A stretch of DNA of 31,840 nucleotides from a virus, in IMG/VR virus record IMGVR_UViG_3300044994_000197, positions 1 to 31,840 of that record; one strand, given 5' to 3'. The notes below the pieces were generated by a model. The model had not been told where the DNA came from, did no database searches, and was given only the letters and a program-made list of their open reading frames with translations. Shown here one piece after another: positions 5,273 through 23,533 of the stretch; positions within the stretch are counted from its first letter, which is position 1; each line of letters opens with the position of its first letter. The position numbers and the translations under genes were made by a program.

Positions 5273-5552
5273 CAAGCGTTTTACGGTTGATGGGCCTTTC
5301 GATATGTTGCCCGGCGAATCGCTTCTGGGAACGTCGATTGAGAACATCGAAATGCCCGATGACCTCATTGCTATCGCTAACGGAAAATCCACACTCGCAC
5401 GCTGTTTTCTGTTGGTCTATGTGACACCCATTGAACCCGGATTCAAAGGAAAAATCACACTGGAACTCACGAATAACTGCCCCGTGCCCCTCAAAATTTA
5501 TGGTGAACACCAATGCCAATGCGACTACCGGCGGAGATGGAAACAAAGGTGA
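5271..5552 (+). pseudogene. dCTP-deaminase/dUTPase-like remnant lacking its N-terminus
   Basis: The frame reads RFTVDGPFDMLPGESLLGTS, then PDDLIAIANGKSTLAR and IEPGFKGKITLEL. These match the conserved core of dCTP deaminases and dUTPases (VDG.PF.L.PGE..LG, the G+SSLAR nucleotide loop, and PGF.G.ITLE with the catalytic Glu). Homology begins upstream of the only ATG (5304), so the family's first 80-90 residues are missing. The frame is open back to 5184 inside the primase gene. Two residues are also absent before IEPGF, and the C-terminus after PLKIY is not family-like. I read this as a deletion-truncated gene at the end of the primase gene. A shortened product from ATG 5304 (82 residues) remains possible. 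Confidence 0.65.
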
Positions 5553-6073
5553 TGGAACTCCTAGCGAAGAACGGGGGAACGATCACCCAAACGAACCAAC
5601 AGCCGTTGAACCAAGCGAACCCAACGAGCTTACCCCCAAACGGTTTGCCATCGAAGAAGCAACCGTCGAAGCCCTTGAGCGAGACGAAGACGGCTTCGAG
5701 TACGCCAACGACAGTGAAGAAGAAGCAGCCGGACTCGAAGAGGCCATCAAAGGGTAAGTCTAAATACCGGAATAGGAAGTTTGTGATTGATGGTGTGAAA
5801 TGGGACTCTGAGAGAGAATACGTGCGTTGGTTGGTGTTATTTGAATGGTTCTCGAAGGGTCTCATTTCACACCTGAGACGGCAGGTAAAGTACAAAATCA
5901 CGCATAATAATGAGTTTATTTGTGTGTACAAAGCGGACTTTGTTTATGTTCGCAACGGGAGTTTGGTCGTGGAGGATGTGAAAAGTGATTTCACGGCCAA
6001 GCTCCCCGTCTATCGCCTCAAAAAGAAATTGATGAAAGCCCACTATGGCATTGAGATTACGGAGATCAAGTGA
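5513..6073 (+). CDS. DUF1064-like phage nuclease
   Basis: A 186-residue protein. The N-terminal half is a Lys/Pro/Thr/Gln-rich, probably unstructured tail. From about residue 80 it is the compact DUF1064 type: KYRNRKFVIDGVKWDSEREY, then KADFVYVRNGSLVVEDVKSD and a C-terminal PVYRLKKKLMKAHYGIEITEI. The E, D and E.VK residues form a PD-(D/E)XK-like set, so a structure-specific nuclease that trims recombination or replication intermediates is the usual inference. The start could also be ATG 5519 or 5552; ATG 5513 has a weak GGTGA upstream. Its 5' end overlaps the dCTP-deaminase remnant, which suggests rearrangement here. Confidence 0.8.
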   Translation: MPMRLPAEMETKVMELLAKNGGTITQTNQQPLNQANPTSLPPNGLPSKKQPSKPLSETKTASSTPTTVKKKQPDSKRPSKGKSKYRNRKFVIDGVKWDSEREYVRWLVLFEWFSKGLISHLRRQVKYKITHNNEFICVYKADFVYVRNGSLVVEDVKSDFTAKLPVYRLKKKLMKAHYGIEITEIK

Positions 6074-6075
6074 CC

Positions 6076-6204
6076 ATGACCTTCGGATCGTTATTCAGTG
6101 GAATCGGGGGCATCGATCTTGGTCTCACTTGGGCAGGAATGGAATGCAATTGGTATTCAAATCTAACCCCTCCCCAACTATCACGTCATCGAGAAATGCC
6201 GTAA
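6076..6204 (+). pseudogene. Truncated C5-cytosine DNA methyltransferase, N-terminal fragment
   Basis: ATG 6076, 2 nt after the preceding stop, begins MTFGSLFSGIGGIDLGLTWA and continues GMECNW. This is the motif I (SAM-binding FSGIGG..LGL) opening of a Dcm-type methyltransferase. After about 26 residues the similarity stops, and the frame closes at TAA 6202-6204 with no catalytic PC motif. The last 24 nt overlap the 3' end of the convergent tail-tube gene. The fragment cannot methylate DNA. It marks a deletion, or a population variant, exactly at the junction of the early and late arms. Confidence 0.75.
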
Positions 6205-6684
6205 AACTCCGCTACCAGCGTCGTAGGGGAGTAATTGCAACTTTACCGGCACTTTCCGCAATTTGGTCGTAAATAGCAGCTTGACTGGGTATCCGGGAGC
6301 AAGGAGAGCCTTGCTGGCCGTCAAGCTCGCAGGCGATGCCTCCGCAGGCGTGTTTGCCACAGCTGTCAACACCGACGCAACGGCCAAATTACTCGCCAAC
6401 CGACCAATCGGATTAGCCGCGTTCGTGAGAATGCCCAACGCACTGGAAACGATCGTGTATGGGACAATCGAACCGGCTTTGTAAGCCTTGCCGGTGTATT
6501 CAAGAGTCACATTTCGACCCCGCCAAATCCAGTCGATGATTGTACCACCGTAAGCGTCAGAATCGTCGATCAATTCTTCGACGGTCTGTTGCTCCAATGC
6601 GTAGCCGTCGTCGTCTGTAATACCCGTATCGACGCTGTTGTATGTGTGTGCGTATCGACCCGAAATAAATGTATCAAGAGCCAT
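6181..6684 (-). CDS. Probable major tail tube protein
   Basis: 167 residues, last gene of the late arm. A perfect ribosome site (AAGGAGG) precedes ATG 6684, consistent with high expression. The N-terminal half (SGRYAHTYNSVDTGITDDDG, then WRGRNVTLEYTGK) looks like a beta-rich tube subunit. A stretch rich in Ala, Ser and Thr follows. The position after the capsid, connector and terminator genes is where a tail tube gene is expected, and the tape measure gene is the first late gene on the other side of the early arm. The assignment rests on position, size and expression signal rather than a clear family motif. The alternative is a head decoration protein. Confidence 0.5.
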   Translation of the reverse strand: MALDTFISGRYAHTYNSVDTGITDDDGYALEQQTVEELIDDSDAYGGTIIDWIWRGRNVTLEYTGKAYKAGSIVPYTIVSSALGILTNAANPIGRLASNLAVASVLTAVANTPAEASPASLTASKALLAPGYPVKLLFTTKLRKVPVKLQLLPYDAGSGVLRHFSMT

Positions 6685-7015
6685 TGGTTTCCTCCTTTAA
6701 CTCAACTTCATCGACACTTTTTTGCTTTGCATCGTTCGCTGTTTTCCAAACGTCGGTTAAACGACAATTCGGACAATTCACGGCATCGGGTTCGGCACTG
6801 TGCATTGTTGTTTCTGTTGGCTTTTGGCCACAGGCCAAAACACCACAACCACGATTCTTGATGATGGCGTGCGGGGCCATGAAGTGGATTGTCCGTAAGG
6901 AAATCACAGTGTTAGCCATGTCGTTCTGAGTGGCATCGGCCCCGCATTTTTTGCAGGTGGGGGCATCGCCCCAAAAATCGGTTGTACAGTTGAGACAACG
7001 GAACGGCCTTGCCAT
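6674..7015 (-). CDS. Zinc-ribbon protein of unknown function
   Basis: 113 residues from ATG 7015, which has AGGTG 6 nt upstream and starts just after the stop of the previous gene; a GTG at 7021 overlapping that stop is an alternative. CLNC (about residue 7) and CKKC (about 21) form one zinc knuckle. A later CGVLACG and CPNC could form a second. It lies between a neck protein and the presumed tail tube gene, and its 3' end overlaps the next gene by 11 nt. Small Cys-rich proteins in this position are seen in some phages, but I cannot assign a role. Confidence 0.7.
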   Translation of the reverse strand: MARPFRCLNCTTDFWGDAPTCKKCGADATQNDMANTVISLRTIHFMAPHAIIKNRGCGVLACGQKPTETTMHSAEPDAVNCPNCRLTDVWKTANDAKQKSVDEVELKEETNGS

Positions 7016-7017
7016 AA

Positions 7018-7548
7018 TCACACCTGTGTTGAAATATCTTGCGTGCGTCTGAGTCCCGAAAAGACCACAGTAATCGCTACACCCGATACCGCCTTACTCT
7101 CTTTTTGGTCTGAGTAAAACCAGTCTGGTTTCTTTTTGGTTGGCCCTTCGATCACTCGGAACCGGAGGGGTTCATTGAATGGTTGTTCTCCCGCATCTAA
7201 CAGGGCATTTATCGCATTGAAGAGCGTGTAATCGACGTGAATTGCAGAACGAACTTTTGCAGCCTGCAAACGAGCTTGCGTGTAAATCTCTGCATCAAGT
7301 CGATCCGTCGGCACACCGCCCGCACGAAGGGTGATAGTCACTTTCACGCCGTAGATTTCGTCGAGTGAGTTATCAGAACCCTCCTCGTGAATTTTCCAAT
7401 CGCCTTGATGGACAGCGTAATAGATTTTCCCTGAATTGGGTGGTGGTTGCCCTTCGGGCTGTGCATCGCAGTCAGTGTCGTTGAGTGAGAGTGTGGATCG
7501 AAGGTGAGCCACGACTGCGTTAATCGCTGCGGTCATGCCGTCGGTCAT
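7018..7548 (-). CDS. Probable tail terminator/neck protein
   Basis: 176 residues from ATG 7548 (GAGG 9 nt upstream). A TTG at 7563 overlapping the upstream stop as TTGA would give 181. The mix of an N-terminal helix (MTAAINAVVAHLRSTLSLND) and a central beta-rich part (IYGVKVTITLRAGGVPTDRL, then GVAITVVFSGLRR at the end) resembles tail-terminator or tail-completion proteins. Position directly after the head-tail connector gene supports this. No sequence motif proves it. Confidence 0.5.
   Translation of the reverse strand: MTDGMTAAINAVVAHLRSTLSLNDTDCDAQPEGQPPPNSGKIYYAVHQGDWKIHEEGSDNSLDEIYGVKVTITLRAGGVPTDRLDAEIYTQARLQAAKVRSAIHVDYTLFNAINALLDAGEQPFNEPLRFRVIEGPTKKKPDWFYSDQKESKAVSGVAITVVFSGLRRTQDISTQV
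7067..7080 (-). promoter_or_regulatory. Weaker late promoter motif inside 7018-7548 gene
   Basis: Minus strand GTAGCGAT followed by TACTGT, one mismatch to the core, 51 nt before ATG 7015. It could serve the zinc-ribbon and tail tube genes. Being inside coding sequence, it may be chance. Confidence 0.35.
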
Positions 7549-7559
7549 GAGGTCAATCC

Positions 7560-8048
7560 TCAATCGTAAGGGTCGATGTCGCGGATATCGACCGGCCCCC
7601 TGACGGTGGAAGGTTCTTGTCCGGCACTACGCGAAGGGGAGGTGACAACGTGAGGAACCGGTTGGAGATCAACACGCTGATTGCCAAGCGATGGGGCAGC
7701 TGCACGGAGCATCGGCACGCCCGGTAGCGTAATTTGACCGAGGCGCACCTTCTCGAGCATCTGTAATGTCTTCTCATACGCGGTCTGTGCCGATGTTGGG
7801 GCATCGTTTAATCTCCTCAGACAGAGCAAATAAACTGCGATGTTGGTTGTTTGCCACTGCACCCATTCCGACGCTGCAAGGGATGTGCTTGAATAGAGTT
7901 GACCGAGATAGAGATAAGTCTCAGAGGAAGCCTCAGAAATGACGCTGGTAACAGCCGTGCCAAGATCATCGATGCGAAGGTTGATGGCCATTTGCCCGAT
8001 TCGTGCAATGATTTTTGCCTCAGTTGTTAGAGTCGGGATAGTGGCCAT
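7560..8048 (-). CDS. Head-tail connector, Mu gp36/DUF1320-like
   Basis: 162 residues, ATG 8048 with GAGG 7-8 nt upstream. It is mostly helical: repeated short helices, an LGQLYSSTSLAASEWVQWQT segment, then YEKTLQMLEKVRLGQITLPG. The last is the typical closing helix and G..LP turn of DUF1320 connectors that sit between portal and tail. The C-terminal 40 residues are an extended Pro/Ser-rich tail. It directly follows the major capsid gene, as in Mu-like head modules. Confidence 0.65.
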   Translation of the reverse strand: MATIPTLTTEAKIIARIGQMAINLRIDDLGTAVTSVISEASSETYLYLGQLYSSTSLAASEWVQWQTTNIAVYLLCLRRLNDAPTSAQTAYEKTLQMLEKVRLGQITLPGVPMLRAAAPSLGNQRVDLQPVPHVVTSPSRSAGQEPSTVRGPVDIRDIDPYD

Positions 8049-8081
8049 GAGGAAACCTCAGAGAACAGAGAGGGAAGGGGT

Positions 8082-9242
8082 TTAGCTATTTCGGACGCGA
8101 GCAACAGCGATACCTTTCGGCACGTTGAGTTCGATTCCGAAGTTTTGCAGTTGGTGCATGATAAACACGGCAGGATCGGCCTTTTCCATGATCCATGCGT
8201 AGAAGCCCTGACGTTCAACAGCCGTTGCGAGGTCGTTATCCTTCACGATCTCCGAACCCTCGATTCCAGCCAGCCAATCACCCATAGTCGGGTCAATCAT
8301 AAACGTGGCATAACCATCGGGAAGAACACGGGTAAGAGTATTATCTAAGCCGACTTCGATTTGACCATCGTAGATGAACCACTTGATCCAAGGAAGCCCC
8401 TTGATAGACCCCATGAACATCCCTGTGGGCGTTCCATCCTCAGTGGTTTCCTTAATCATCTCGTAGGTAGCAAACGGGGAACCCGTTGTTCCTGCGAGTT
8501 GGCGAACGTAGGTGTTTTGCAGGACGTTGAGCCACGTTTTGTGATCGACGTAAACCCGATCCAACGGAGCCCCAACTTGTCCCTGAAACGCTGCACTGAT
8601 AGCCACCAATTGAGATGGGATATCGGTAGCCGCATCAGCCCACGTTGCGGTGATGAGGTTAGAACCTGTTTCCATTTGCAAACCGGCTGCAAAAGTGTCA
8701 CCGATCAGTTTGTTCGAGGATGGGATTTTCATATCAACACCGAACAGAGTGCCGGAACTTGTCCACGAGGGGATAAGATCATCACCTTGAGCGATGAAGT
8801 AGTAAATCCCACCACGAAACAGCGAACCAATGATGAATTCACGGAACGTGTCCGACCGTTGGCGAAGAGCGAGAGCTTGCTTTTCGACGTAGCGAACGCC
8901 CATTCGATCAAGCGTTCCGGCATTGGCACCGAGCGTTCGGATATTGTGAATCTTGTTGTAGTCGAGAGGTAACTTTTCGGCGGATCGTGCGAGCGTCACC
9001 GTGTTTGTGCCGACAGGTGCAGCAGCGATTGCGTTAGCCGATGCACCGGGTAACTTACCACGAGCAGGCCGACGAACATTATCGAAAAGGTCGTAGGTGT
9101 AGGTTCGTCCGGGTACTTGTTGGATATTCGGCCCGTCGATCTGCATACCGAAGTGGCGAGAGAGGACGGAACCCGGAACCCGAATACGCGAGATGATTTT
9201 TCTGACTACGCTTGGGGTCAGAATATCGATTGAACTTGCCAT
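8082..9242 (-). CDS. Major capsid protein, E-like (HK97 fold)
   Basis: 386 residues, the length expected of this capsid family. The opening SIDILTPSVVRKIISRIRVP, with its FGMQIDGPNIQQVPGRTYTYD, matches lambda-E-type and related capsid proteins. SAEKLPLDYNKIHNIRTLG is also family-like, as is the middle QRSDTFREFIIGSLFRGG. IEGSEIVKDNDLATAVERQG near the end fits a C-terminal P-domain strand. It sits in the usual order after the protease/scaffold and decoration genes. It is a late structural gene, with GGAG 11 nt before ATG 9242. Confidence 0.85.
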   Translation of the reverse strand: MASSIDILTPSVVRKIISRIRVPGSVLSRHFGMQIDGPNIQQVPGRTYTYDLFDNVRRPARGKLPGASANAIAAAPVGTNTVTLARSAEKLPLDYNKIHNIRTLGANAGTLDRMGVRYVEKQALALRQRSDTFREFIIGSLFRGGIYYFIAQGDDLIPSWTSSGTLFGVDMKIPSSNKLIGDTFAAGLQMETGSNLITATWADAATDIPSQLVAISAAFQGQVGAPLDRVYVDHKTWLNVLQNTYVRQLAGTTGSPFATYEMIKETTEDGTPTGMFMGSIKGLPWIKWFIYDGQIEVGLDNTLTRVLPDGYATFMIDPTMGDWLAGIEGSEIVKDNDLATAVERQGFYAWIMEKADPAVFIMHQLQNFGIELNVPKGIAVARVRNS

Positions 9243-9303
9243 ACTTTAACACTCCAAGTGAAGTCAGAAACAAAGGTAAAACAAAGGGCGATTACGGTGT
9301 TGG

Positions 9304-10089
9304 TTAGGCAATCGTTGGGGTCTGTGTCTCTGCACCGAGCGAGACTTTCGTGAGGTACTTTGTGCCGTCAGCGTTGGCGTAAACCTCGACCATCGCACCG
9401 ACTTTTTCGGAGCTTGTCGAGAACGAAATGCTTGTTGCAGTTGCGTTGTTGAACGCAACGAGTTTGCCAGCAGGAGCCGTTACGGTTAGGTTCTGGTTTG
9501 CTTCGACAAAGAACGCGAATTTGAGACCCTGAGCAACAGCAGGGAGTGTGAAATTCACAGCACCCGATGCGCCCTGATTCGTGAAGAGCTTGCCGTTATC
9601 CGTGCTTGCCGAAACGGTGTAGTCGGCAGTTTTGGCAACGACGTTTGTGTACGTTGCGGGGATGCCTTGCAGCATATCGTCGAAAAGAAAACGCCCGTAC
9701 ATTTGTTGGCGTGCTTGCACATCTAACAAAAGCAACTGAGCAGCCTTCACGTTCCCGCCAACCATAATCACGCAGCGTTTATCTTCTGCCGATCCGGTGC
9801 GAAAATTCAGCATGTTTATGTTGTCAAACAACACACCTGCAACAATTTGAGAACCGTCTGTACCAGTCGGATTGTACTCCTTGTATTTGAGAGACGAAGT
9901 GACCTGACCTACCAACAATCCCCGTCGAAGTTGCGTAGTCGGGGAGTTACCCGCATCGACAGCAGCTGAACTCATCACACCCGTAATGAGGACTGGTTCT
10001 TGCTTACCCCAAGTAAACTCACGTTCGGTCGATACAACCGCATCGCCCATGCCCGGCATGTCGTACGGATTGATTAAAGTATTTGACAT
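9304..10089 (-). CDS. Capsid decoration (head stabilising) protein
   Basis: 261 residues from ATG 10089, with GAGGG 8 nt upstream; a GTG one codon earlier is possible. The N-terminal part (FTWGKQEPVLITGVMSSAAV, GLLVGQ, VAGVLFDNINM) is like the lambda gpD class of decoration proteins, which cap the capsid threefold sites. The C-terminal third (SASTDNGKLFTNQGASGAVN followed by FTLP) is a beta-domain common on phage surface proteins. It could project as an adhesive knob. A weaker late-promoter motif lies at 10121-10134. Confidence 0.8.
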   Translation of the reverse strand: MSNTLINPYDMPGMGDAVVSTEREFTWGKQEPVLITGVMSSAAVDAGNSPTTQLRRGLLVGQVTSSLKYKEYNPTGTDGSQIVAGVLFDNINMLNFRTGSAEDKRCVIMVGGNVKAAQLLLLDVQARQQMYGRFLFDDMLQGIPATYTNVVAKTADYTVSASTDNGKLFTNQGASGAVNFTLPAVAQGLKFAFFVEANQNLTVTAPAGKLVAFNNATATSISFSTSSEKVGAMVEVYANADGTKYLTKVSLGAETQTPTIA

Positions 10090-10120
10090 CACAAGCCCTC
10101 AAAATTCAGTGAATAAAAAT

Positions 10121-10134
10121 ATGATAACCGATAC
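10121..10134 (-). promoter_or_regulatory. Weaker late promoter motif for decoration gene
   Basis: Minus strand GTATCGGT followed by TATCAT, one mismatch to the core GTAGCRGN, 31 nt before ATG 10089. It could boost decoration and capsid protein expression. Confidence 0.45.
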
Positions 10135-10149
10135 ACAAACGCCCAACTG

Positions 10150-11196
10150 TTATTTTGTTGCGTCCCATTGCTTCATAATTTCGTCCGTCTTCTCTGGGGA
10201 GTCGGCATCGTCTTCCAGTTCGGGTTTGCCTTTGCTCAGTGCGACCCGTCCTGACGGTTTGAATAATGATCCTTCGGGAAGAGCTTCATACGCTTCGATT
10301 TGCGTGAGAACGTTGTTGGAGTTTAGTTCTCCGTCATCGCCAAACGAGAGTTGAACCGTTGTCACAGCTTTGGTGAGCTTTTCGCCAATTTGGGGAGTGA
10401 TGCGACCTGATTTATTCAACGCTTCGATACGTTTGCAGAGGTCTTTGCGTGCCAAGTTTGTTGCACGGTCAAGTTGCTTTTGCAAGCTCATCGCAATCGG
10501 TTGAGATTGTTTGGTCTCTTCAGGTTTGGCCCCACTTTCGGGCTTGTTTTCATCGGGCTTGATGGTGTCGTCGCCTTTTGCTGCAAGAGCATCGCAGATA
10601 AGGGTAATGCGTTCCCATGCGTTCTCTGGGGTGGTGTCTTCGGGTAAGTTGATCCCGTGTTTTGCCAACGCTTCCAGAGCTTTCTTGAACCACTCTTCCA
10701 TTGTTTCCCCTTGCTTGTAGTCTGACTCTGAGAGCCGGATCACTGGATATTTGCGACCGTTTGACAATTGGAACGGTTGCTGGTTTGTTTGCACAGGTCT
10801 TGGTGTAACCGCTACATGAGTGATCGTTGCTTTTCCGCTTCGATCATCGACCCCATTCGACCAACCGTAATCGATTTCAGGGGAGACGTATTTCACTGAT
10901 TTGAGTTTTTGCACATCCTCTTCATTGTCGAACTCGTGCAGAGCCTCAAGGACTCCCCCTACAACTCGATAATCGACGATGCGTCCGATTGTTCCTTTTG
11001 CTTTGTCAGCTTCGCTGAGTTTGTAAGGCCCGCCGTTTTGATGTTCCCAATAGATGGGAATTTGGTAGCCGTCGCTAATGAGCTTTTTCCCACCGTGCAA
11101 ACCTTCCTGCACGTCGGCATCGGTGAAGGTGTGGAATCGCCCTTGCGCGAAGACTCGACCAGTTCGGAGAATATCTTTCCAGACTCGGAATGCCAT
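10150..11196 (-). CDS. Prohead protease with C-terminal scaffold, Mu I-like
   Basis: 348 residues. The N-terminal domain resembles the Mu gpI-type head maturation protease: GRFHTFTDADVQEGLH, IPIYWEHQNG with a likely catalytic His, LKSVKYVSPEIDYGW and ATITHVAVTPRPVQ. The C-terminal half is charged and helical, with EEWFKKALEALAKHGINLPE and a long Lys/Glu region, as expected of an internal scaffold that is removed on maturation. It lies just upstream of the decoration and capsid genes. The start ATG 11196 follows GGTGATTT. Its promoter motif at 11275-11288 is shared back to back with the plus-strand gene at 11313. Confidence 0.85.
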   Translation of the reverse strand: MAFRVWKDILRTGRVFAQGRFHTFTDADVQEGLHGGKKLISDGYQIPIYWEHQNGGPYKLSEADKAKGTIGRIVDYRVVGGVLEALHEFDNEEDVQKLKSVKYVSPEIDYGWSNGVDDRSGKATITHVAVTPRPVQTNQQPFQLSNGRKYPVIRLSESDYKQGETMEEWFKKALEALAKHGINLPEDTTPENAWERITLICDALAAKGDDTIKPDENKPESGAKPEETKQSQPIAMSLQKQLDRATNLARKDLCKRIEALNKSGRITPQIGEKLTKAVTTVQLSFGDDGELNSNNVLTQIEAYEALPEGSLFKPSGRVALSKGKPELEDDADSPEKTDEIMKQWDATK

Positions 11197-12677: not shown

Positions 12678-13000
12678 TTTGGTTTGGTCAATTCATCAAG
12701 GGTCTTTTCGAGGCTTGCTTTTTCAGCGTGGATCTTTTCATAGTCGAGCAAGTGTTGAGTCACTTCTTCTTCGTGTTGTTTTTTGAGATGTTCGATTGTT
12801 TGTTTGAGTTCTGTGTTTTCGGCTTGAAGTGCCGAAAATGCTTCTGGGTTGAGTTGTTTTTCAAGCTCTTGACAATGCTCCCACGCCAACACTTCTTCGG
12901 GTGAGGCCATGTACATGAGTGTGTGTTCTGGGTAGGTTTTCCACGCATTCAGAAAACCCGATGCGTTTGGTTTGTATTCAATTTGGTAGGGAAATCCCAT
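12626..13000 (-). CDS. Coiled-coil protein downstream of terminase
   Basis: 124 residues from ATG 13000, which overlaps the terminase stop (TGATG). The first 50 residues (GFPYQIEYKPNASGFLNAWK and on) look globular. From about 60 to 110 there is a heptad-rich helix (FSALQAENTELKQTIEHLKK). The coupling to the large terminase suggests co-expression, but I recognise no family. It may be a packaging accessory or virion protein. Longer starts inside the terminase gene are possible but unnecessary. Confidence 0.65.
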   Translation of the reverse strand: MGFPYQIEYKPNASGFLNAWKTYPEHTLMYMASPEEVLAWEHCQELEKQLNPEAFSALQAENTELKQTIEHLKKQHEEEVTQHLLDYEKIHAEKASLEKTLDELTKPNQVASESAIDGEESDGN

Positions 13001-14439
13001 CACTGGCCTCCGATGATCTTTGGTGCAATCGATTTTTGCGGGCGGGTCTGCTGACACTCTACCGCATACGCAAGGGTGTCAACGATGTCATCGTGTGAGT
13101 CCCGTTTTTCATCGCCGGTGAACCGACACAACTCGCTCAAAACCTCGTCGATGGGAAAACGGGTTGGTGCTTGACCGACGTGATGGAAGGGGCACGGCAT
13201 CGCAGGCAAATAGATTCGACCTGACTTCGCCAACGTGCTTGCAGCGATGGCCCTTGAGCGTTTATCCCGTCCCATTGGGGACACTTCACGGCACGGCAAA
13301 ATCGGGTTCACGGATCGTTGAGCAAGTTGGAACACTCCACGATTTGACATCACCGCTTCGATAGCGATAAACGACGGTTTCCAGATTCTCGCTACCCGTT
13401 GAATATGAGGGAGAATATCGGGTATTTCTGCCTTGAATCGGTAGCATTCCAACCACACCAAATCGCCGGTAGGCGAAACAGTCCACACCGAAATAACCGT
13501 ATAGTCGGCAAGTTCACTGACACTCGACGCTGGATCGATTGTGAAAAAGATTTCTTGCTTTCGTAGGTCAAATTCTGTTGTTCCGGTTGGCGATTTGAGG
13601 ATGATGAAATCACCTTGTTTCGTCCAGTAGCGGAAATCATTCCGTTTGAAGAGATCACCTCCACCGGCATCCCAATCACCCTTCTCAATTCGGTCGCGTG
13701 TGAGTTGGTCAGCGTTCGCCAACGAAGCAAGGTACGTTTCCTGATCCAGGGCAGGGTTATCACTCATCAACGCCTTGATAAACACGGCATTTCGCTTGCG
13801 GGTGTCGGAATCAATAAACCGCGTTTTAACCCAATCGTGACCAATCCCGCCGGGGTTCGATGCCGATCTCATTCGCAACGGGGTTGTGCTATTTTTGAGC
13901 TTTCGTAATCGAGAAAAAAGGAACGTGTACTGAGTCTCCGTGAACTGGGTGAGCTCATCAAAGGCGATGTATTGAAATTCTGCCGATGCGTACCGGTATT
14001 TGTCATTCTCGGTTTCGAGATAACCAAAGGTTAACGTCGAACCCGAAGGGAAAGTGTAGGTCTTGCGTTGCTCGTTCCATTTCGCCCGTGTCCCTGCAAG
14101 GTACATATGGGCTCGATTCATCAATGATGAAGGTAGGGAAAGGTCAGAATAGGTACGTCGCAAGATCAAAGCAGCATAGTTTTTTTCTTCGACGAATTGC
14201 AAAGCACCAAAGAGAATTGCATCAGATTTCCCACCACCACCAGCCCCACCATAGAACAACTCTTCCGTGTAGGAGTGCAGCAAAAACTCTTGTTGTTTTG
14301 GATAGGGTATGCGTTTATGTTCGCGTGCGAGATGATGAAACCACTCGTTATCCGTTACCGTCCTGTGGTACGTCTCCCAATGCTTCCAAAGTGCGTTGGA
14401 AGGACTTGAGGGATTCAAGGTTGATGCTGTATTCGGCAT
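13000..14439 (-). CDS. terL: Terminase large subunit
   Basis: 479 residues. The ATPase domain has Walker A GGAGGGGKS at 64-72, Walker B YIAFDE near 157-162 and the coupling motif SNPGG near 194-198. The nuclease domain has IFFTIDPASSVSELADYT, WKPSFIAIEA and HDDIVDTLAYAVE, which supply the acidic metal ligands of the RNase-H-like fold. It is the motor that cuts and packages concatemeric DNA. ATG 14439 starts 92 nt inside the small-subunit gene, which is longer than the usual overlap; the ATPase core begins only near residue 43, so a later start is possible. All catalytic residues are present. Confidence 0.95.
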   Translation of the reverse strand: MPNTASTLNPSSPSNALWKHWETYHRTVTDNEWFHHLAREHKRIPYPKQQEFLLHSYTEELFYGGAGGGGKSDAILFGALQFVEEKNYAALILRRTYSDLSLPSSLMNRAHMYLAGTRAKWNEQRKTYTFPSGSTLTFGYLETENDKYRYASAEFQYIAFDELTQFTETQYTFLFSRLRKLKNSTTPLRMRSASNPGGIGHDWVKTRFIDSDTRKRNAVFIKALMSDNPALDQETYLASLANADQLTRDRIEKGDWDAGGGDLFKRNDFRYWTKQGDFIILKSPTGTTEFDLRKQEIFFTIDPASSVSELADYTVISVWTVSPTGDLVWLECYRFKAEIPDILPHIQRVARIWKPSFIAIEAVMSNRGVFQLAQRSVNPILPCREVSPMGRDKRSRAIAASTLAKSGRIYLPAMPCPFHHVGQAPTRFPIDEVLSELCRFTGDEKRDSHDDIVDTLAYAVECQQTRPQKSIAPKIIGGQ

Positions 14440-14842
14440 GATCTACCGCTCCTGAATGCTTCACCTGAACGGGTTTATCAGGGTCTCCTTTGATAGTGTG
14501 TTTCTTCGCGGGTCGGAAATCTGGGTTCATCGACTGGATCACGAACATGAGCATTTTTTCGGACGGCTTTTTGATTGTGCCAACTCGAACATGATCGCGG
14601 TAAACGGGTTGCTCAATCCCTTCCGTTCCCCATTTGATCGCCAGGCTAACAAATCGCCACGAACCGATTTTGGCAGCGAGGTCAAATTCTGATTTGAGTT
14701 CGGGCGTGGATTCGCTGTACCTAATCACATCAATGAAATTGACGCCAACAATTTTTGCAGCTTCTGTGGGATCGCCACACTCGGAGAAAGCGTTGAGAAA
14801 AAGTGGCCACCAGATTTTAGGGTCATCGAATTCGACTTCCAT
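14348..14842 (-). CDS. terS: Probable terminase small subunit
   Basis: 164 residues, ATG 14842. The N-terminal part (FLNAFSECGDPTEAAKIVGV, then IDVIRYSESTPELKSEF) is a helix-turn-helix of the kind small terminases use to bind packaging sites. PSEKMLMFVIQSMNPDFRPA resembles the oligomerising helix and the usual L....P..+ segment. It directly precedes and overlaps the large subunit. The late-promoter motif at 14852-14865 ends only 9 nt before the ATG, so its transcript would be nearly leaderless. A terminator hairpin stands immediately upstream. Confidence 0.75.
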   Translation of the reverse strand: MEVEFDDPKIWWPLFLNAFSECGDPTEAAKIVGVNFIDVIRYSESTPELKSEFDLAAKIGSWRFVSLAIKWGTEGIEQPVYRDHVRVGTIKKPSEKMLMFVIQSMNPDFRPAKKHTIKGDPDKPVQVKHSGAVDHAEYSINLESLKSFQRTLEALGDVPQDGNG

Positions 14843-14939: not shown

Positions 14940-15362
14940 TTAGCGACCGATAATTGCGCCAAGTGTGTTGCGGAGAACATTTAAGACCCCAATCACACCA
15001 ACGCCTGCCCCGTTGTTTACTTCGATTCGTTGAACCCGTTGAACTTGTTGGGCCCGAAAACCTTGAGCGTGGAAGTTTTGGGCTCGGAAATTCTGAACAG
15101 GTGCGACGTAGTAACCCGTCGAGAAGTTCTGGGCACGGAAGGCAAACGCTTGAGGGGCATAGACTGGTGCAGAGAATCGACGAATCTCAAGGGTCTGGGT
15201 AGGGACATCGGTATACCCACCACACCCACTGGTTACGGCTTGGGTGAACCCTTGAGAGTAACCGGTTTGGATGATTGGTGCGGGTGCAACCCGCAAGCAA
15301 TCACCGGCGGTTGCCACACCGCCAAACACAAGCACAATGGCAACGAGAGAAAGAAAACGCAT
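14940..15362 (-). CDS. Secreted Gln/Phe-rich repeat protein
   Basis: 140 residues with a signal peptide (MRFLSLVAIVLVFGGVATAG, cleavage near 19). The mature part carries the repeat FRAQNF three times or in variants (FRAQNF, FRAQNF, FHAQGFRAQ), and a YYVAPVQ segment echoed by NYVAPVYN in the haem protein at 15742-16326. The C-terminal GVGVIGVLNVLRNTLGAIIG is hydrophobic and could insert in or lie on a membrane. GGAG 8 nt before ATG 15362 is a good ribosome site. The style matches planctomycete exported proteins. An outer-envelope role is inferred. It is the last gene before the terminator. Confidence 0.75.
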   Translation of the reverse strand: MRFLSLVAIVLVFGGVATAGDCLRVAPAPIIQTGYSQGFTQAVTSGCGGYTDVPTQTLEIRRFSAPVYAPQAFAFRAQNFSTGYYVAPVQNFRAQNFHAQGFRAQQVQRVQRIEVNNGAGVGVIGVLNVLRNTLGAIIGR

Positions 15363-15741: not shown

Positions 15742-16326
15742 TTATTTGATCGGTTTTTCGTCGGCCCAATCAGCGAATACGTTAAACTCTTTTTGTTCCA
15801 TCGCCGGTTTACCTTTGGGCATTCGGCCTTTGCTCACTGCGATAAACGAGCGTAACCGAACCGATTCGGGAATCTTTGCAGGATCGATGGACAGATCGGG
15901 TTCGGTTGCTCCTTTCTTGTGGCAACTGGCACAACGGGTTGCCAGAATCTGATTGATTGTGCCGTCCTTCGGTGCCACGATATTTTCTTTCGGGGTCACA
16001 TCAAGGGGGGGAGTTCCGTTTGTTAGGGGGGGAGTTCCCTTTCCCGCTTGGATCAACCCGTAAAGCTCTTTGGCAACCAATCGAGCAAATTCGGCTTGCC
16101 GTGCTTCGTCGGAAGGTTGTGCGAAGTAGTCGGGTCGAACCTGAACCGCGAATGCCTTTGGCACTAACACCGTGTCATAGTAGTAGTGTTGTGCGTAGGT
16201 CGGTGTGTTATAGACAGGGGCGACGTAATTGCCCGTTGTCACCACACGCCGACAATCGGACGCATTGAGCGTAAAAGCACAAGCCAACAGCACAAGGCTT
16301 GCGAAACAAAAGATTCGTGCGAACAT
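15742..16326 (-). CDS. Exported small c-type cytochrome
   Basis: 194 residues. The signal peptide MFARIFCFASLVLLACAFTL has cleavage expected after NAS near residue 23. The CASCH haem-attachment site is at 132-136, in ILATRCASCHKKGATEPDLS. RMPKG, with Met 169, is the likely distal ligand in SKGRMPKGKPAMEQKEFNVF. This is the layout of a class I mono-haem domain like those fused to planctomycete proteins, and haem would be attached outside the cytoplasm by the host machinery. The linker contains a seven-residue duplication (GTPPLTN/GTPPLDV) from two identical 14-bp G7-containing repeats. Its ATG overlaps the stop of the larger cytochrome gene (TAATG), so the two are translated together. Confidence 0.85.
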   Translation of the reverse strand: MFARIFCFASLVLLACAFTLNASDCRRVVTTGNYVAPVYNTPTYAQHYYYDTVLVPKAFAVQVRPDYFAQPSDEARQAEFARLVAKELYGLIQAGKGTPPLTNGTPPLDVTPKENIVAPKDGTINQILATRCASCHKKGATEPDLSIDPAKIPESVRLRSFIAVSKGRMPKGKPAMEQKEFNVFADWADEKPIK

Positions 16327-18071
16327 TATTTCTTCTCCTTCAATTTGAGTTCAAATTTCTCGATAGCGTCTTGAATTAACAAATCCTTGAGCATGAGTTT
16401 GATCCTCTCCTCTTGCCCCTTATCGGCATCGAGAATCAAAAACATCTCACGGGCAACCCCGTCTATCGGGTCTTCCCATGCTTCACGCGGAATCGACTTG
16501 CCCAAAGCCAGTTGGTTCGGTCGAGTCTTCACGGGTCGATACTGCAACACAATGAGTTTGAGCCGATCTTCTGACACACCTAATTCACGCGATGCCGATT
16601 TTAGATCGATATTCGAATCGTACATATCCCGAAACTTTTGGAACTGTTTGACAGTTTCAACCGGTGTCCAACTCTTTTTTGTGGCAGGATCAAACGTCGT
16701 TTGCTCTACGAAGTAGAGGTACGGGTCTTGCCAACCCTTGATCTTGCGTGTCCACGACGTGTAAAAATCCTCTATCTGTTGCTGCTTGATTGGATCATCC
16801 GATGCAAGTTCCAACCCATATTTTTTTGCAGCCGTTACTTGCTCTTCAAACGTGATGAATCCCCCCGAAGGAAGATGACACACGACACAACTCATATGGG
16901 TGCGAACATCGAGATACTTATCAATCTTGGAATCGACCTGAGCTAGATTTGACGGTGCAATCTCGACCCGTTTATCATCGCCCCCCACGAGTAAACCTGA
17001 TTGTGAGCCGTTGGGAAGGGTTGCGAGAATTTCCGATCCGTCGGCTTTAATATCGCCCTTTGCAATCTGCCCGAAGCGTTCCATATGGTCTTTGTCGCCC
17101 TGCACTTTGAACACATCGAAGGTTCGAGTCACAACGCCGAAATCGGAAGGGGTCACGCGAACCGCACGGGTACGCAAAGCCACGAATGAGCCTGCCCCAT
17201 CTCCATCGAGTTTGCCCAATCCGATGCCACCAACACGCGGGTCAACGCCGGTGTTTTTAATCGCTTCTGCGAAGTTGTTCCCACCCCACTTCTTCTCAAA
17301 ATCCGCTCCTGTCTCTGGGAAGTTTACTTGCCCTTTCTTTGCAGATTTAGCCACGACGGGGAAGGGATTATCAACACCTTTCACTGGCACTTCAACCCAC
17401 TTGTTGTATTTGAATGAACCCTTCGGATAGGTCTTCCCATCTTCGGGCCAAACGCCCCCTTCCCAATCAGTGATTACCGTTTTCCACTCGGTCTGTGGCT
17501 TCGCGGTCGGTCGGTCAATCGGGATAAGAATATCCCCATCGGGGAAGCGTTCTTGAGCGTAGAGCAAGTCGTAGTAGGTCGTCGCTTTATTGCTCTCTAT
17601 GCTATCCCGAAACAGTTGCCAAGCGTTCATCACGATTACAGATGCAAGCGTCTTCGGGTCTTGTTTCACGCCACACGCACGCCGGATGAACTCGGCTTGT
17701 TGGGTGGGGATGAGAGGTTCCCTGAATAGGTAATCTCTGTTCCCGACGACCTCCCATGCGGTTCGTGTCCAATTTGGGGCACGGCGTATATCGTAACGGA
17801 CGATCAACCCGTTAGCGATTTCCGTTTCAGGAAGGATGCTCTTGGCAGTGGATAGATGATTGATCCAGAAACGAAAGACCCGACGAAACGCCGGTCGATC
17901 ATCTTCGGGAATCGTGTGAAAGGAAAAGTAACGCTGAAAAGGAGCGTCTTCGGGTTTGACCTTCACGGCAAGATCGTTCACCACAAGCCCAATAATCTGA
18001 GCCGGTGAGACGAGTTCCTTTTCGGGCATCGGTTGCCCAATCGTCATCGACAATAACAACAACCCCTGCAT
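16326..18071 (-). CDS. Large cytochrome c-domain protein, planctomycete-like
   Basis: 581 residues. The short hydrophobic N-terminus (MQGLLLLSMTIGQP) may be an export signal. It carries one haem site, CVVCH, at 395-399, preceded by SEILATLPNGSQSGLLVGGD and RVEIAPSNL. From memory, that order (E-I-....LPNG.Q.G....G......AP then C..CH) is characteristic of a large cytochrome c-domain family common in Planctomycetota. The early RYFSFHTIPEDDRPAFRRVF also fits that family, as do FWINHLS and TTYYDLL. Electron transfer or redox sensing in the periplasm is the family expectation, but I know of no proven function. GGAG precedes ATG 18071, 21 nt after the small membrane-peptide gene. Confidence 0.8.
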   Translation of the reverse strand: MQGLLLLSMTIGQPMPEKELVSPAQIIGLVVNDLAVKVKPEDAPFQRYFSFHTIPEDDRPAFRRVFRFWINHLSTAKSILPETEIANGLIVRYDIRRAPNWTRTAWEVVGNRDYLFREPLIPTQQAEFIRRACGVKQDPKTLASVIVMNAWQLFRDSIESNKATTYYDLLYAQERFPDGDILIPIDRPTAKPQTEWKTVITDWEGGVWPEDGKTYPKGSFKYNKWVEVPVKGVDNPFPVVAKSAKKGQVNFPETGADFEKKWGGNNFAEAIKNTGVDPRVGGIGLGKLDGDGAGSFVALRTRAVRVTPSDFGVVTRTFDVFKVQGDKDHMERFGQIAKGDIKADGSEILATLPNGSQSGLLVGGDDKRVEIAPSNLAQVDSKIDKYLDVRTHMSCVVCHLPSGGFITFEEQVTAAKKYGLELASDDPIKQQQIEDFYTSWTRKIKGWQDPYLYFVEQTTFDPATKKSWTPVETVKQFQKFRDMYDSNIDLKSASRELGVSEDRLKLIVLQYRPVKTRPNQLALGKSIPREAWEDPIDGVAREMFLILDADKGQEERIKLMLKDLLIQDAIEKFELKLKEKK

Positions 18072-18092: not shown

Positions 18093-18218
18093 TCAATCGT
18101 CTAATCTTTTAGTAATAGCTTGAATAATTAAACACGCAATACAGATTAGCACTAAAGCCCCACCCGCATAAATCACGGTCTCGAAAAATCCTTTCGTGAT
18201 GTTCATTTGAGCAATCAT
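18093..18218 (-). CDS. 41-residue single-span membrane peptide, holin-like candidate
   Basis: ATG 18218 overlaps the stop of the metalloprotease gene (ATGA), giving coupled translation. The product, MIAQMNITKGFFETVIYAGG then ALVLICIACLIIQAI and TKRLDD, has one strong hydrophobic span (about 15-35) and a charged C-terminus. It is the only small membrane protein seen in the late arm. By size, topology and place it could be a holin-like or lysis-regulating peptide, or a membrane partner of the adjacent protease and cytochromes. No homology supports either choice. Confidence 0.6.
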   Translation of the reverse strand: MIAQMNITKGFFETVIYAGGALVLICIACLIIQAITKRLDD

Positions 18219-19111
18219 TTTTGCAACTCAACTTTGTATCCTGCTTGCCGGAAAGCATCGATCAGCTTTTCGACATCTGCGGTTACGGTGATCGGGATCG
18301 TGACGGGCTTGGCAGAAGGCTTTTCATTGCGTCGAGCATAACCAAGAGCAATCGCACGCGATGCGTCCCTCTCGTTTGGGAATTTGACGTTTCGTGAGTA
18401 GGTCGGTTCCATCAGTGAACCGGTTCCGATTTGGTCATGTACGAGTCCTAAAACGTGACCGATCTCGTGGGCAGCGACCCTTACCATTTCGATTATGTTT
18501 GCGGGTGGAGGTTCAGTTGAACTCAATCCCCACGGTTCGGCGGAATCATACAACTGCTCTTTTGGTACCAGTGTGCCGTCTGCAAGTTCTGAATAAGCAA
18601 GGATGTTGCCCCTTCCATCGGGCATTCCATCGTTGCGGGCAATCACGCCAAATCGGTGATTTACGAGGGATTGTTTTACGTCGGTAACGGGGGTTGGATC
18701 GATATCGATCCAACGTGACCATGACTGCCATGCCATCGAGAATGCAGCACGGATTTCATCTGGTTTGAGGCTTCCCCGATACCCCGACACATCGACAAAA
18801 TACGTGATCTTTTTGGTAGGCCACTTTTTGGCGACAAAGTTCTCTTGCAGCCTGCTATCGGTTCCGCAAAAGTAAATCACACTGTCAGCAATCGCCTGAA
18901 CTTCAGCTTTTTCTTTTGGAGTTTCTTCGACCGGTGGTGGTGCAACGATTTCGGGACCGGTTAGCCCTGTTAATTTTTCGAGATACCGAGCAAAAAGAGA
19001 AAGGAGAAGCACACCAAGAGCAATCGCAAACCAACGCAAAACGGGACTGACCCACGCCCACGGGTTACTCGGTTCTGGTGTTACTGCGGTCTGGGTGTCT
19101 GAGGTTGCCAT
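18215..19111 (-). CDS. Membrane-anchored matrixin-type zinc metalloprotease
   Basis: 298 residues from ATG 19111 (GGGAG 8-13 nt upstream; a TTG two codons earlier is possible). A transmembrane span lies at about 22-43 (VLRWFAIALGVLLLSLFARY). A linker and a catalytic domain from about 95 follow. KKITYFVDVSGY and IRAAFSMAWQSWSRW are the matrixin strand and first helix. The zinc site HEIGHVLGLVH has H215, E216, H219 and H225, followed by the Met-turn SLMEPTY with Met 234. All catalytic residues are intact. The domain should face the periplasm or outside, cutting envelope or cell-surface proteins. In a late operon it is a candidate for release, receptor shedding or exclusion. There is no propeptide Cys switch. 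Confidence 0.85.
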   Translation of the reverse strand: MATSDTQTAVTPEPSNPWAWVSPVLRWFAIALGVLLLSLFARYLEKLTGLTGPEIVAPPPVEETPKEKAEVQAIADSVIYFCGTDSRLQENFVAKKWPTKKITYFVDVSGYRGSLKPDEIRAAFSMAWQSWSRWIDIDPTPVTDVKQSLVNHRFGVIARNDGMPDGRGNILAYSELADGTLVPKEQLYDSAEPWGLSSTEPPPANIIEMVRVAAHEIGHVLGLVHDQIGTGSLMEPTYSRNVKFPNERDASRAIALGYARRNEKPSAKPVTIPITVTADVEKLIDAFRQAGYKVELQK

Positions 19112-19176
19112 TGTCAATACTCCCTAAATCGTTGGAACTATTTCTGAAAATCTGGAACATCAGTGAAACTCCCAGA

Positions 19177-20644: not shown

Positions 20645-23533
20645 CTATAATGCTTTGACTATGTAATTAAGAACCAAACTTGGTTGCATGTTATTGTGTG
20701 ATCCACCACCACCCTCGGCTCCAGTATAGCCTGTTGCAAACGAGGTAATCCCGTTCACATTAGCCCATACGTTTGTATCAGAAAAGGCCGTACCACCGTC
20801 ACCGAAAGCAACGTGTTTTGTGTGCGTGTGTGGTGGAATTTCGTCAATTACAAGCGTGTGAGTTTCTGATCCACCAGTGTCGCCAATCGCATTACCGAGG
20901 ATCGCCGTTCCCGTTCCGCCTGCTCCAACCAGAGTTCGTCGTGCGACGTTCGGGGTTCCAAAGGTCGTAATACCGTCACCAGGCCCAAAAGTGGTTCCCC
21001 AAAGGGCAAACAGCGAAGCATAGGTTGTTCGGCTTATGTTGGCTCCATCAAGAATTAGCCAATTTGTCGGAGGCGTTCCGGTTCCCCATGCGGCTATAGT
21101 CCCAATCGGCGTGTTATCTGAGGTCGCCGAAAGAATCGTTCCGTTCATCGAAAGGCCAGGGCCTAACGTGATCGCAGCAATGTCACCCGTCGATCCACGC
21201 CCCAATAACTGAGACGCCGAAAGTGCCGTTTCGCCCAAATCACCCGATGAACTTGCAGCCCTTGTAATGACTGTGTTTGCCGATGCGTTTTGCATCTTGG
21301 CGTAGGTGATCGCATCGTCAGCCACTTGCCCTGTAGCCAACTGTGCAGCAACGATATTACCCGCGACTCGACCAAGTACCGTGTTGGTTCCAACTGCGAT
21401 ATCGGTTGCGTTGGCGGTTGATCCGGTGTTGTTCCCTTTGATGGTGTTCGCGGCCATCTGAGCGAGTTGAGTGTTGGTGACCTTGTTCGTTCCAATGGTT
21501 GGATTCGGATAGGTTCCGGTGAGATCGCCACCAGCAGCACCCGAAGGCGGGACGCCACTAGTCCCCTTCGTTAGAACAAGACCGCCCTTTATGGTTGTTC
21601 CATCTTGAAGAGTATCTGTAAGACCTTTTGCTCGACCTGCCCCAATACCGACGGCAAACCCGTCAAGCGCGTGAATCCAGCCCGCCGTAATTGCCGAATA
21701 ATCGCTCGAAGTTGCTGTAAGAAAATCGGTTGCAGCCGGTGAGCTTGAAAGCTTGTACAGGTATAGAGCAGCACTCTCATCGAGATAGGTATACATCAAT
21801 CGCAATCCGGGAATTGATGTCGCAATCAGACCCGTGAAATTCTCAAAACTTCCATACCCTCTATCGCTTTCGAGTTTAAGCGAACGTGTTGCAATATTAA
21901 ATTTGGAAAGCGTTGTGTTGACCGTCGAGTAAATTTCAACGGACGGAGGAACCGTTGGGGGCAATTGGTCATAAAATCGAATCGCCAATTTATCTGACAC
22001 ATCTTGGATTGTAATTGCAGTGTCAAAATTTTTGATGCCTAGTCCCATATCCTGATTGGATAAATTAACTTTTCCGCTTTGGGTTCGGTCAACATCAGGG
22101 ATGGTTCCCGCTTGAATTTCCTGCACAAGATACAACGGGTAATCAGTTTTCTTCTCGACAAACTTACCCAAATATACCTGATCTAATGTGAGCGGTTGGC
22201 CGTCAACACCAATCGCAACGCACTTAATCACATCGGTTTCATAAGCATTCGTTGATGCGTTCCACAACCGCACCTCAGCCGGATAGTACCCATCACCATC
22301 GGGCGTAGAATCGGTGATCTTTACGACCTCGATTTGGCGGAACTTTTTCTTTGGGGTCTTTGGGAACTCGAACTGTGAGGGTGGCCGAATGTCTCGTTTG
22401 ATCCTCGTGGTAAACCCGTAGGTCTGATTGGCCGTCCAAACACTCTCACGCACCGTCGAGCCGGGCATTATCTCCCACAAAGAAGAATAGACCTTCTCGT
22501 AACCGAGTGGGTCTTGTCGAGCAGCACGGAAATAGCTCACAGCAAGGGCGTTTGCCCGCGAAGTCAAGTCACTCGAATTTAGCAAACTTAGACCAGCATA
22601 TTCAGCCCGCAAATCGTCGTGGATGATGTGGACGGTGTTGCTTACCTGCCCCTTCTGAAAACCCGAAGGATCGTCCACCGTGACCACATAGTAGGGGTCT
22701 TGAAGGAAATTTTCTTGCGGTTCACGTCGAAAATGAACTGCAACGGATGAAGGTATCCGTGTTGTGACCGGGTTAAATTGGGAGTCATCACCCAGAAGGT
22801 ACGGTGCGAGTTGTGCCAGTTGGTTTGTTGTTGCTGTGTCGGTTGAACCGACCCGAACAAACGACGCGGTAGCCGTCGTTGGGTTCCACACCAACTCCCA
22901 ACCCAACTTTGCGAATATGGTTTGCAGTGCATATTTTGCCGTCCTACCGCGAAAATCAAACTCAGTTGGCGTTCCGTCTGGTGTTTCGGGAAGTGCGGGC
23001 ACAGTGCCGATAATCGCAGCAGGGGGCCGAGCTACCGCAAAGGTCGTCGGAAGATACCCCCAGATATCCGCAATCATCTCCGACCAAGTCCACGCCGTCC
23101 CCGAATTGAGGGTCGTGTTGATTGTCGGTTGTGATGATGGGTAATATGGCCCCGCCGGTGTGATAGGTAAATTGTACGCCTTGTTGAGCAAGTAAAAATC
23201 CAACAGGGTTCGCACGTCCCGCAACTCGACCAGATATTGAGATTCTGAGTTTGGTCGTGCGGGTGTAACGCAACGAGCTTGATGAATTAGCAGCGATTTG
23301 ATTGTTACCGACCGCGTTTGATCGGATAACACGAGGTCATACGCCTTCTCTCGATCAATCGCGGTTAGCGTTTCGCGGGGGAGCAACACCCACGCAACAC
23401 CTGCATCGAACCCCAACACATTGCGATAGGTGTTACACTTCGCACGCCAAGACGTATCGATTCCCAAGACGCTTAACTGCTCCGCAGTTCGATCCGGGTC
23501 AGTGCAACGATATTGGCCGAAAAACGCACTCAT
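20645..23533 (-). CDS. Large tail tip/fibre protein with collar domain
   Basis: 962 residues. Residues up to about 470 are beta-rich and resemble a baseplate-hub-like or tail-tip module. The next 150 are a short-strand segment. From about 650, fibre repeats appear, including PPSGAAGGDLTGTYPNPTIG, QLAQMAANTIKGNNTGS and QLLGRGSTGDIAAITLG. The last 160 residues are a phage tail-collar domain (PIGTIAAWGTGTPPTNWLIL, the IPPHTHT motif, GGSHNNMQPSLVLNYIVKA). This arrangement joins the tail tip to the receptor-binding fibre in one chain. It is the main host-recognition candidate. Confidence 0.85.
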   Translation of the reverse strand: MSAFFGQYRCTDPDRTAEQLSVLGIDTSWRAKCNTYRNVLGFDAGVAWVLLPRETLTAIDREKAYDLVLSDQTRSVTIKSLLIHQARCVTPARPNSESQYLVELRDVRTLLDFYLLNKAYNLPITPAGPYYPSSQPTINTTLNSGTAWTWSEMIADIWGYLPTTFAVARPPAAIIGTVPALPETPDGTPTEFDFRGRTAKYALQTIFAKLGWELVWNPTTATASFVRVGSTDTATTNQLAQLAPYLLGDDSQFNPVTTRIPSSVAVHFRREPQENFLQDPYYVVTVDDPSGFQKGQVSNTVHIIHDDLRAEYAGLSLLNSSDLTSRANALAVSYFRAARQDPLGYEKVYSSLWEIMPGSTVRESVWTANQTYGFTTRIKRDIRPPSQFEFPKTPKKKFRQIEVVKITDSTPDGDGYYPAEVRLWNASTNAYETDVIKCVAIGVDGQPLTLDQVYLGKFVEKKTDYPLYLVQEIQAGTIPDVDRTQSGKVNLSNQDMGLGIKNFDTAITIQDVSDKLAIRFYDQLPPTVPPSVEIYSTVNTTLSKFNIATRSLKLESDRGYGSFENFTGLIATSIPGLRLMYTYLDESAALYLYKLSSSPAATDFLTATSSDYSAITAGWIHALDGFAVGIGAGRAKGLTDTLQDGTTIKGGLVLTKGTSGVPPSGAAGGDLTGTYPNPTIGTNKVTNTQLAQMAANTIKGNNTGSTANATDIAVGTNTVLGRVAGNIVAAQLATGQVADDAITYAKMQNASANTVITRAASSSGDLGETALSASQLLGRGSTGDIAAITLGPGLSMNGTILSATSDNTPIGTIAAWGTGTPPTNWLILDGANISRTTYASLFALWGTTFGPGDGITTFGTPNVARRTLVGAGGTGTAILGNAIGDTGGSETHTLVIDEIPPHTHTKHVAFGDGGTAFSDTNVWANVNGITSFATGYTGAEGGGGSHNNMQPSLVLNYIVKAL

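Follow-up and report, generated by a model that had tools for sequence, protein, structure and literature searches.

Planctomycete proteins that join a PSCyt1 cytochrome (PF07635) to a second domain, here called D, are related to the phage genes described below. Their D domain is homologous to that of the phages and shares its CxxCH core (for example, L051 4359–6125 and L052 5295–7631), and the cytochrome c domain of the same chain has its own CxxCH and an MP motif. No function is known for the PSCyt domains of PVC bacteria (PMC5615132). Among phages, sulfur phages encode the cytochrome SoxD (PMC8190135), a precedent for phage cytochromes as metabolic genes. An initial annotation of the window analyzed here, which is a whole IMG/VR virus record of 31,840 nt, proposed a pair of exported c-type cytochromes in a phage late region and knew of no described system. 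Our literature search agrees, as no description of this cluster was found in work on phage cytochromes, planctomycete phages and walls, or PSCyt domains (few subscription papers included), nor any account of a phage that equips the host envelope with a haem-protein system of its own.

The D–E gene pair

Two overlapping genes in the window encode proteins with CxxCH motifs. Both reading frames are open and intact, and they share a TAATG overlap. The first encodes D (581 aa) with CVVCH at residues 395–399, and the second encodes E (194 aa) with CASCH at 132–136 and Met169, all as initially read from the sequence. A purine-rich, ribosome-binding-like sequence precedes each gene (GGAG for D, AGGAG for E). 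The whole cassette lies on the minus strand, which corrects the initial annotation. The main features are as follows.

13000–14439, minus strand: terminase large subunit (PHROG phrog_979, E = 1.7e-67)
14348–14842, minus strand: terminase small subunit (PHROG phrog_4044, E = 1.8e-11)
14940–15362, minus strand: F, 140-aa exported low-complexity protein (visible signal peptide; position after E)
15742–16326, minus strand: E, 194-aa exported protein, predicted class I-type cytochrome c (signal peptide, CASCH 132–136, Met169)
16326–18071, minus strand: D, 581-aa CxxCH protein, putative large haem-c domain (motif in 27/27, leave-one-out E = 1.6e-30)
18093–18218, minus strand: 41-aa protein with one transmembrane segment, MIAQMNITKGFFETVIYAGGALVLICIACLIIQAITKRLDD, encoded between the peptidase and D
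18215–19117, minus strand: M10 (matrixin) metallopeptidase (Pfam PF00413, E = 4.9e-18)
20645–23533, minus strand: tail collar/fibre protein (Pfam PF07484, E = 3.2e-16, and PHROG tail families)

Pfam and PHROG matches in the window place the cassette among late structural genes, with the terminases adjoining it on one side and the tail collar/fibre gene on the other, and portal and major head genes also recognized around the pair. Its initial placement between tail fibre and terminase is thus correct, but the M10 and 41-aa genes intervene on the tail side and F on the terminase side. The 41-aa gene shares 4 bases with the M10 gene, and 21 bases separate its end from D. The window also carries RecT/RecE-type recombination genes and primase genes. 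No canonical lysis gene (holin, endolysin, or spanin) was recognized with PHROGs and Pfam among the window ORFs searched, and none was identified adjoining the cassette. Amid the head genes, a 348-aa protein without annotation (10150–11196, minus strand) resembles, by eye, a Mu-type protease/scaffold.

The CxxCH motifs are confined to D and E among the 40 non-overlapping ORFs of the window. Shuffled sequences of D's length yielded the motif in 0/20,000 cases and those of E's length in 0.13%; these shuffles and the leave-one-out profile matches reject a chance origin, with conservation as the more powerful of the two tests. For E, the motif is conserved in 12/12 aligned phage members, as is a Met ligand (the Met of a G-x-M-P stretch or its equivalent), and the protein has a clear signal peptide. 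Its match to Pfam Cytochrome_CBB3 (PF13442, E = 9.9e-5) scores 23 bits and is below the curated cut-off of 27, and a leave-one-out profile of phage relatives finds the window's E at E = 0.0015. These features identify E firmly as a class I-type cytochrome, a His/Met electron carrier for which covalent haem and redox activity are predicted.

Protein D shows a comparable constancy at its putative haem site. Its CxxCH is exact in all 27 aligned homologues, phage and cellular, at ~20–25% identity; Tyr222, Val297, Gly312, Gly404, and Arg529 are also invariant across these sequences. Leave-one-out profiles recover the window's D at E = 1.6e-30 when built from other phage members and at 3e-17 when built from cellular members (E-values scaled to 1e6 sequences). 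No His or Met downstream of the CxxCH is invariant across the alignment, as expected if D's haem is open or otherwise ligated. Pfam, PHROG, and NCBIfam contain no family that the window's D matches, and its putative haem site is not covered by a cytochrome profile in Pfam, NCBIfam, and PDB profile searches. Nor was a solved structure matched for the D domain, as the good PDB matches fall elsewhere in the family profile. AlphaFold models of D and of one cellular fusion, made with an alignment of five sequences only, reach a pLDDT of ~40. From motif and context we infer that D is a haem-c protein, and we use the word cytochrome for it in that sense. Separately, the C-terminal region of the D family profile (positions 489–544) weakly resembles Tn916 excisionase 1y6u (E = 0.0046), an odd match if D is exported.

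Export of D is better supported in its relatives than in the window. D follows a signal or anchor sequence in most phages; the start of the window's D is short, uncharged, and hydrophobic (MQGLLLLSMTIGQ), differs from that of most relatives, and is weak as a signal peptide, so its export is less sure. Of the initial claim of two exported c-type cytochromes, the part concerning E stands on both counts; for D, neither a cytochrome fold nor a working signal peptide at its own start could be established. The broader reading, in which a phage late region encodes a pair of haem-c-type proteins destined for the envelope, is supported.

The cassette across viral contigs

The cassette recurs in phages of widely different size. 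D, E, and F occur in the same order and on the same strand in 15 viral contigs (19–595 kb, window included), with D of 530–650 aa and E of 194–394 aa. E lies directly downstream of D in every one of them, the two genes mostly overlapping or separated by at most ~20 bases. A tblastn search of phage records gave one match, LR756511.1 (595 kb); there too, D is followed by a gene for a signal-peptide CxxCH protein. Scanning viral contigs with alignments and patterns added L049 (126 kb) and L050 (187 kb), and further viral scans contributed eight more split pairs and then L108–L110, two of which are nearly identical in the cassette region. Single-sequence viral scans with D and E returned no matches, the relatives surfacing through alignments and DNA patterns, and an E-family scan confirmed none. 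D was not seen in viral records with related terminases (a set with many fragments and without a positive control), so the cassette is not obviously travelling with this terminase lineage. In L105, it lies near baseplate genes (weak matches). Since the same pair sits in one conserved cluster in fourteen other phage contigs, the cassette has the look of a purpose-built phage tool, not of a host gene carried along by accident.

Neighboring genes are also shared to differing degrees. An exported protein, A, precedes the pair in 12/15 contigs and was not found in 294 Planctomycetota genomes (a search without a positive control). A papain-type peptidase, B, is present in nine of the 15 cassettes; solved relatives were found, the Q, C, H, and N of the papain site are conserved, and no signal peptide is visible. 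An M10 peptidase occurs instead in the window and in L049. The window's enzyme has an N-terminal transmembrane segment and the zinc site HEIGHVLGLVH. The L049 enzyme carries a peptidoglycan-binding domain at its N-terminus, with no signal peptide visible, and so is laid out like an endolysin. In L101 and L103, an exported C39-like protein, without Pfam support, lies nearby on the opposite strand, and no peptidase was seen near the cassettes of L099 and L105. A helix-rich protein, C, is found in 9/15 contigs. An exported V/A/G/Y-rich protein, also described as Y/F/G-rich, follows E in all 15; no sequence-level homology is detectable between cassettes for this protein, F, whose equivalence is one of position and export only.

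Several of these contigs have further features of note. In L104, an intein (Hint/LAGLIDADG, 7157–9139) interrupts the papain-type peptidase exactly at its predicted catalytic Cys; holin-like genes near the same cassette were considered and set aside, having no PHROG or Pfam family support. The large phages LR756511.1 and IMGVR_UViG_3300036766_002288 carry second, shorter D homologues (L054 1495–2673, minus strand, and L061 1162–2310, plus strand; 392 and 382 aa) that directly follow an exported C39-peptidase-like protein (GYCAWxC) and have no adjoining E. Near the cassette of L099 is a nicotinamide phosphoribosyltransferase gene (5518–6912, minus strand; PHROG E = 1.5e-151).

Cellular relatives and lineage

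The profile search against Planctomycetota and phages that the initial annotation proposed found D relatives in the 14 other viral contigs and in Planctomycetota. D is matched at E ≤ 1e-10 in 8/294 Planctomycetota genomes. A phage-alignment scan of 84,980 species confirmed two loci, both in Planctomycetota, although it ran with few patterns and is silent on absence outside that group. Complete cellular relatives are one chain with two CxxCH motifs, an N-terminal PSCyt1-type cytochrome followed by the D domain; PSCyt1 (PF07635) is matched by these relatives and by neither window protein. The split D/E architecture was not seen in the sampled Planctomycetota genomes. A search for the capsid in the same 294 genomes gave one weak relative. 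Hosts related to Planctomycetota are probable for phages with the cassette. By eye, the cellular PSCyt1–D genes have recurrent FlgO-like neighbors (L051 6204–9368, L070 214–1314, and L073 3271–4524); that of L051 is without a Pfam match, and L051 also has a WD40 protein.

The phage form appears to be an old lineage. In a tree of 27 D domains, a branch of length 2.15 with 100/100 support parts the fused forms from all split phage forms, which argues for an old phage lineage rather than a recent capture; the window and L049 branches are long and their exact place is unsure. Recent capture from a host is rejected on the same grounds, as the split phage D is not nested among host sequences. Where not saturated, dN/dS is 0.056–0.117 for D and 0.09–0.22 for E, values from which both genes are judged to be under purifying selection. 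One viral contig, UViG_2740892559 (L097), encodes a fused, cellular-type PSCyt1–D protein of 1426 aa (6307–10587, minus strand). Exported proteins surround it, a tape-measure-like gene lies nearby, and the fused protein groups with the cellular sequences.

Candidate functions and comparison with known systems

The arrangement of these genes suggests a redox function in the host envelope. We give roughly even chances to the reading that D and E form a phage-specific two-component haem-c module, placed outside the host cytoplasm late in infection, whose redox activity on the envelope serves remodeling or release. Both proteins would rely on the host for Sec export and for cytochrome c maturation. 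Exported E, with one His/Met haem, would act as an electron shuttle, and D would be its large haem-c partner, exchanging electrons with E and possibly offering its own haem as the reaction center. Occurrence as one chain in cells and as two genes in phages makes E and D likely electron-transfer partners, the cellular fusion of a PSCyt1-type cytochrome to D being the argument for the partnership. Together with the peptidase and the exported proteins of the late cluster, the pair may act on the host envelope through a redox reaction, and the neighboring genes suggest envelope remodeling or cell release late in infection as the outcome. Remodeling or release is favored by the L049 peptidase, the exported neighbors, the late structural surroundings in the window, and the lack of a recognized lysis gene among the window ORFs searched.

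Other functions, or none, can be weighed against the same observations. The main rival, which we regard as unlikely, is auxiliary respiration, in which the pair would feed or relay electrons to the host chain and so sustain the proton-motive force during infection. E does resemble a soluble His/Met electron carrier, and phage electron-carrier genes exist (SoxD, PMC8190135), but D is not among known respiratory proteins, a deep split separates its phage and cellular lineages, and respiration needs neither the peptidase nor the exported low-complexity proteins to which the pair is tied. The initial annotation had suggested both an effect on the proton-motive force and envelope remodeling as possible roles. 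It is this neighborhood of peptidase, exported proteins, and helix protein that favors an envelope role over plain respiratory support. Such a role could also be protective, the exported proteins changing the infected cell's surface so that other phages are excluded, with the haem proteins cross-linking or oxidizing surface components. Haem-c enzymes can oxidize aromatic residues, and several cassette proteins are exported, the Y/F/G-rich F among them; the window genes nonetheless sit in a late structural region, and we judge protection improbable.

We consider it just as improbable that D's CxxCH is not a haem site (being, for example, a metal or disulfide site) and that E is the sole cytochrome. 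D's site does lack both a cytochrome profile and a conserved distal ligand. Against this, the motif is exact in 27/27 sequences at ~20–25% identity, and the domain is fused to a cytochrome c in cells and stands behind a signal or anchor sequence in most phages. Least probable by far, and already contradicted, is that these are host genes carried by chance or through misassembly and without a phage function. Planctomycetota chromosomes do hold relatives, but the same cluster recurs in 15 viral contigs, its genes are under purifying selection, its split architecture was not seen in the sampled Planctomycetota genomes, and its lineage is phage-specific and apart from the cellular form. The misassembled host fragment that the initial annotation had named as a refutation is thereby ruled out.

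An envelope-directed haem-c module remains our preferred reading, and a stronger form of it, which we find rather doubtful, would make the cassette a core system of phages with genomes of ~30 kb to 595 kb, in which haem-c redox chemistry and a peptidase open or remodel the cell. Such a redox-driven attack on the envelope, if true, would be a phage function of a kind not described before. That the cluster is conserved in phages of such different genome sizes suggests a common step of infection that is still unexplored, and the cassette supplies a defined protein family for expression and haem staining.

Each of the known systems resembles the cassette in part. The best solved match of the D family profile is the di-haem iron oxidase FoxE (PDB 5MAB, E = 1.3e-8), a match limited to the cellular PSCyt1 part of the profile that does not cover the D domain. 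Phage lysis cassettes likewise combine a late cluster, exported proteins, a small transmembrane protein, and a peptidase, whereas the core genes here encode putative haem proteins and no holin, endolysin, or spanin is recognized. SoxCD of sulfur phages also comprises a phage-encoded c-type cytochrome with an enzyme partner in the periplasm (PMC8190135). However, the partner there, SoxC, is a molybdenum enzyme, and SoxD belongs to the known metabolic cytochromes. Searches of Pfam and NCBIfam matched D to no family, that of SoxC included, and the phage SoxD and the cassette cytochromes are unrelated. The planctomycete PSCyt1–D fusions share the homologous domain, but they are single chains with an N-terminal cytochrome and other gene surroundings, whereas the phage form consists of two genes, lies in a cluster with a peptidase and exported proteins, and occupies a separate branch of the tree.
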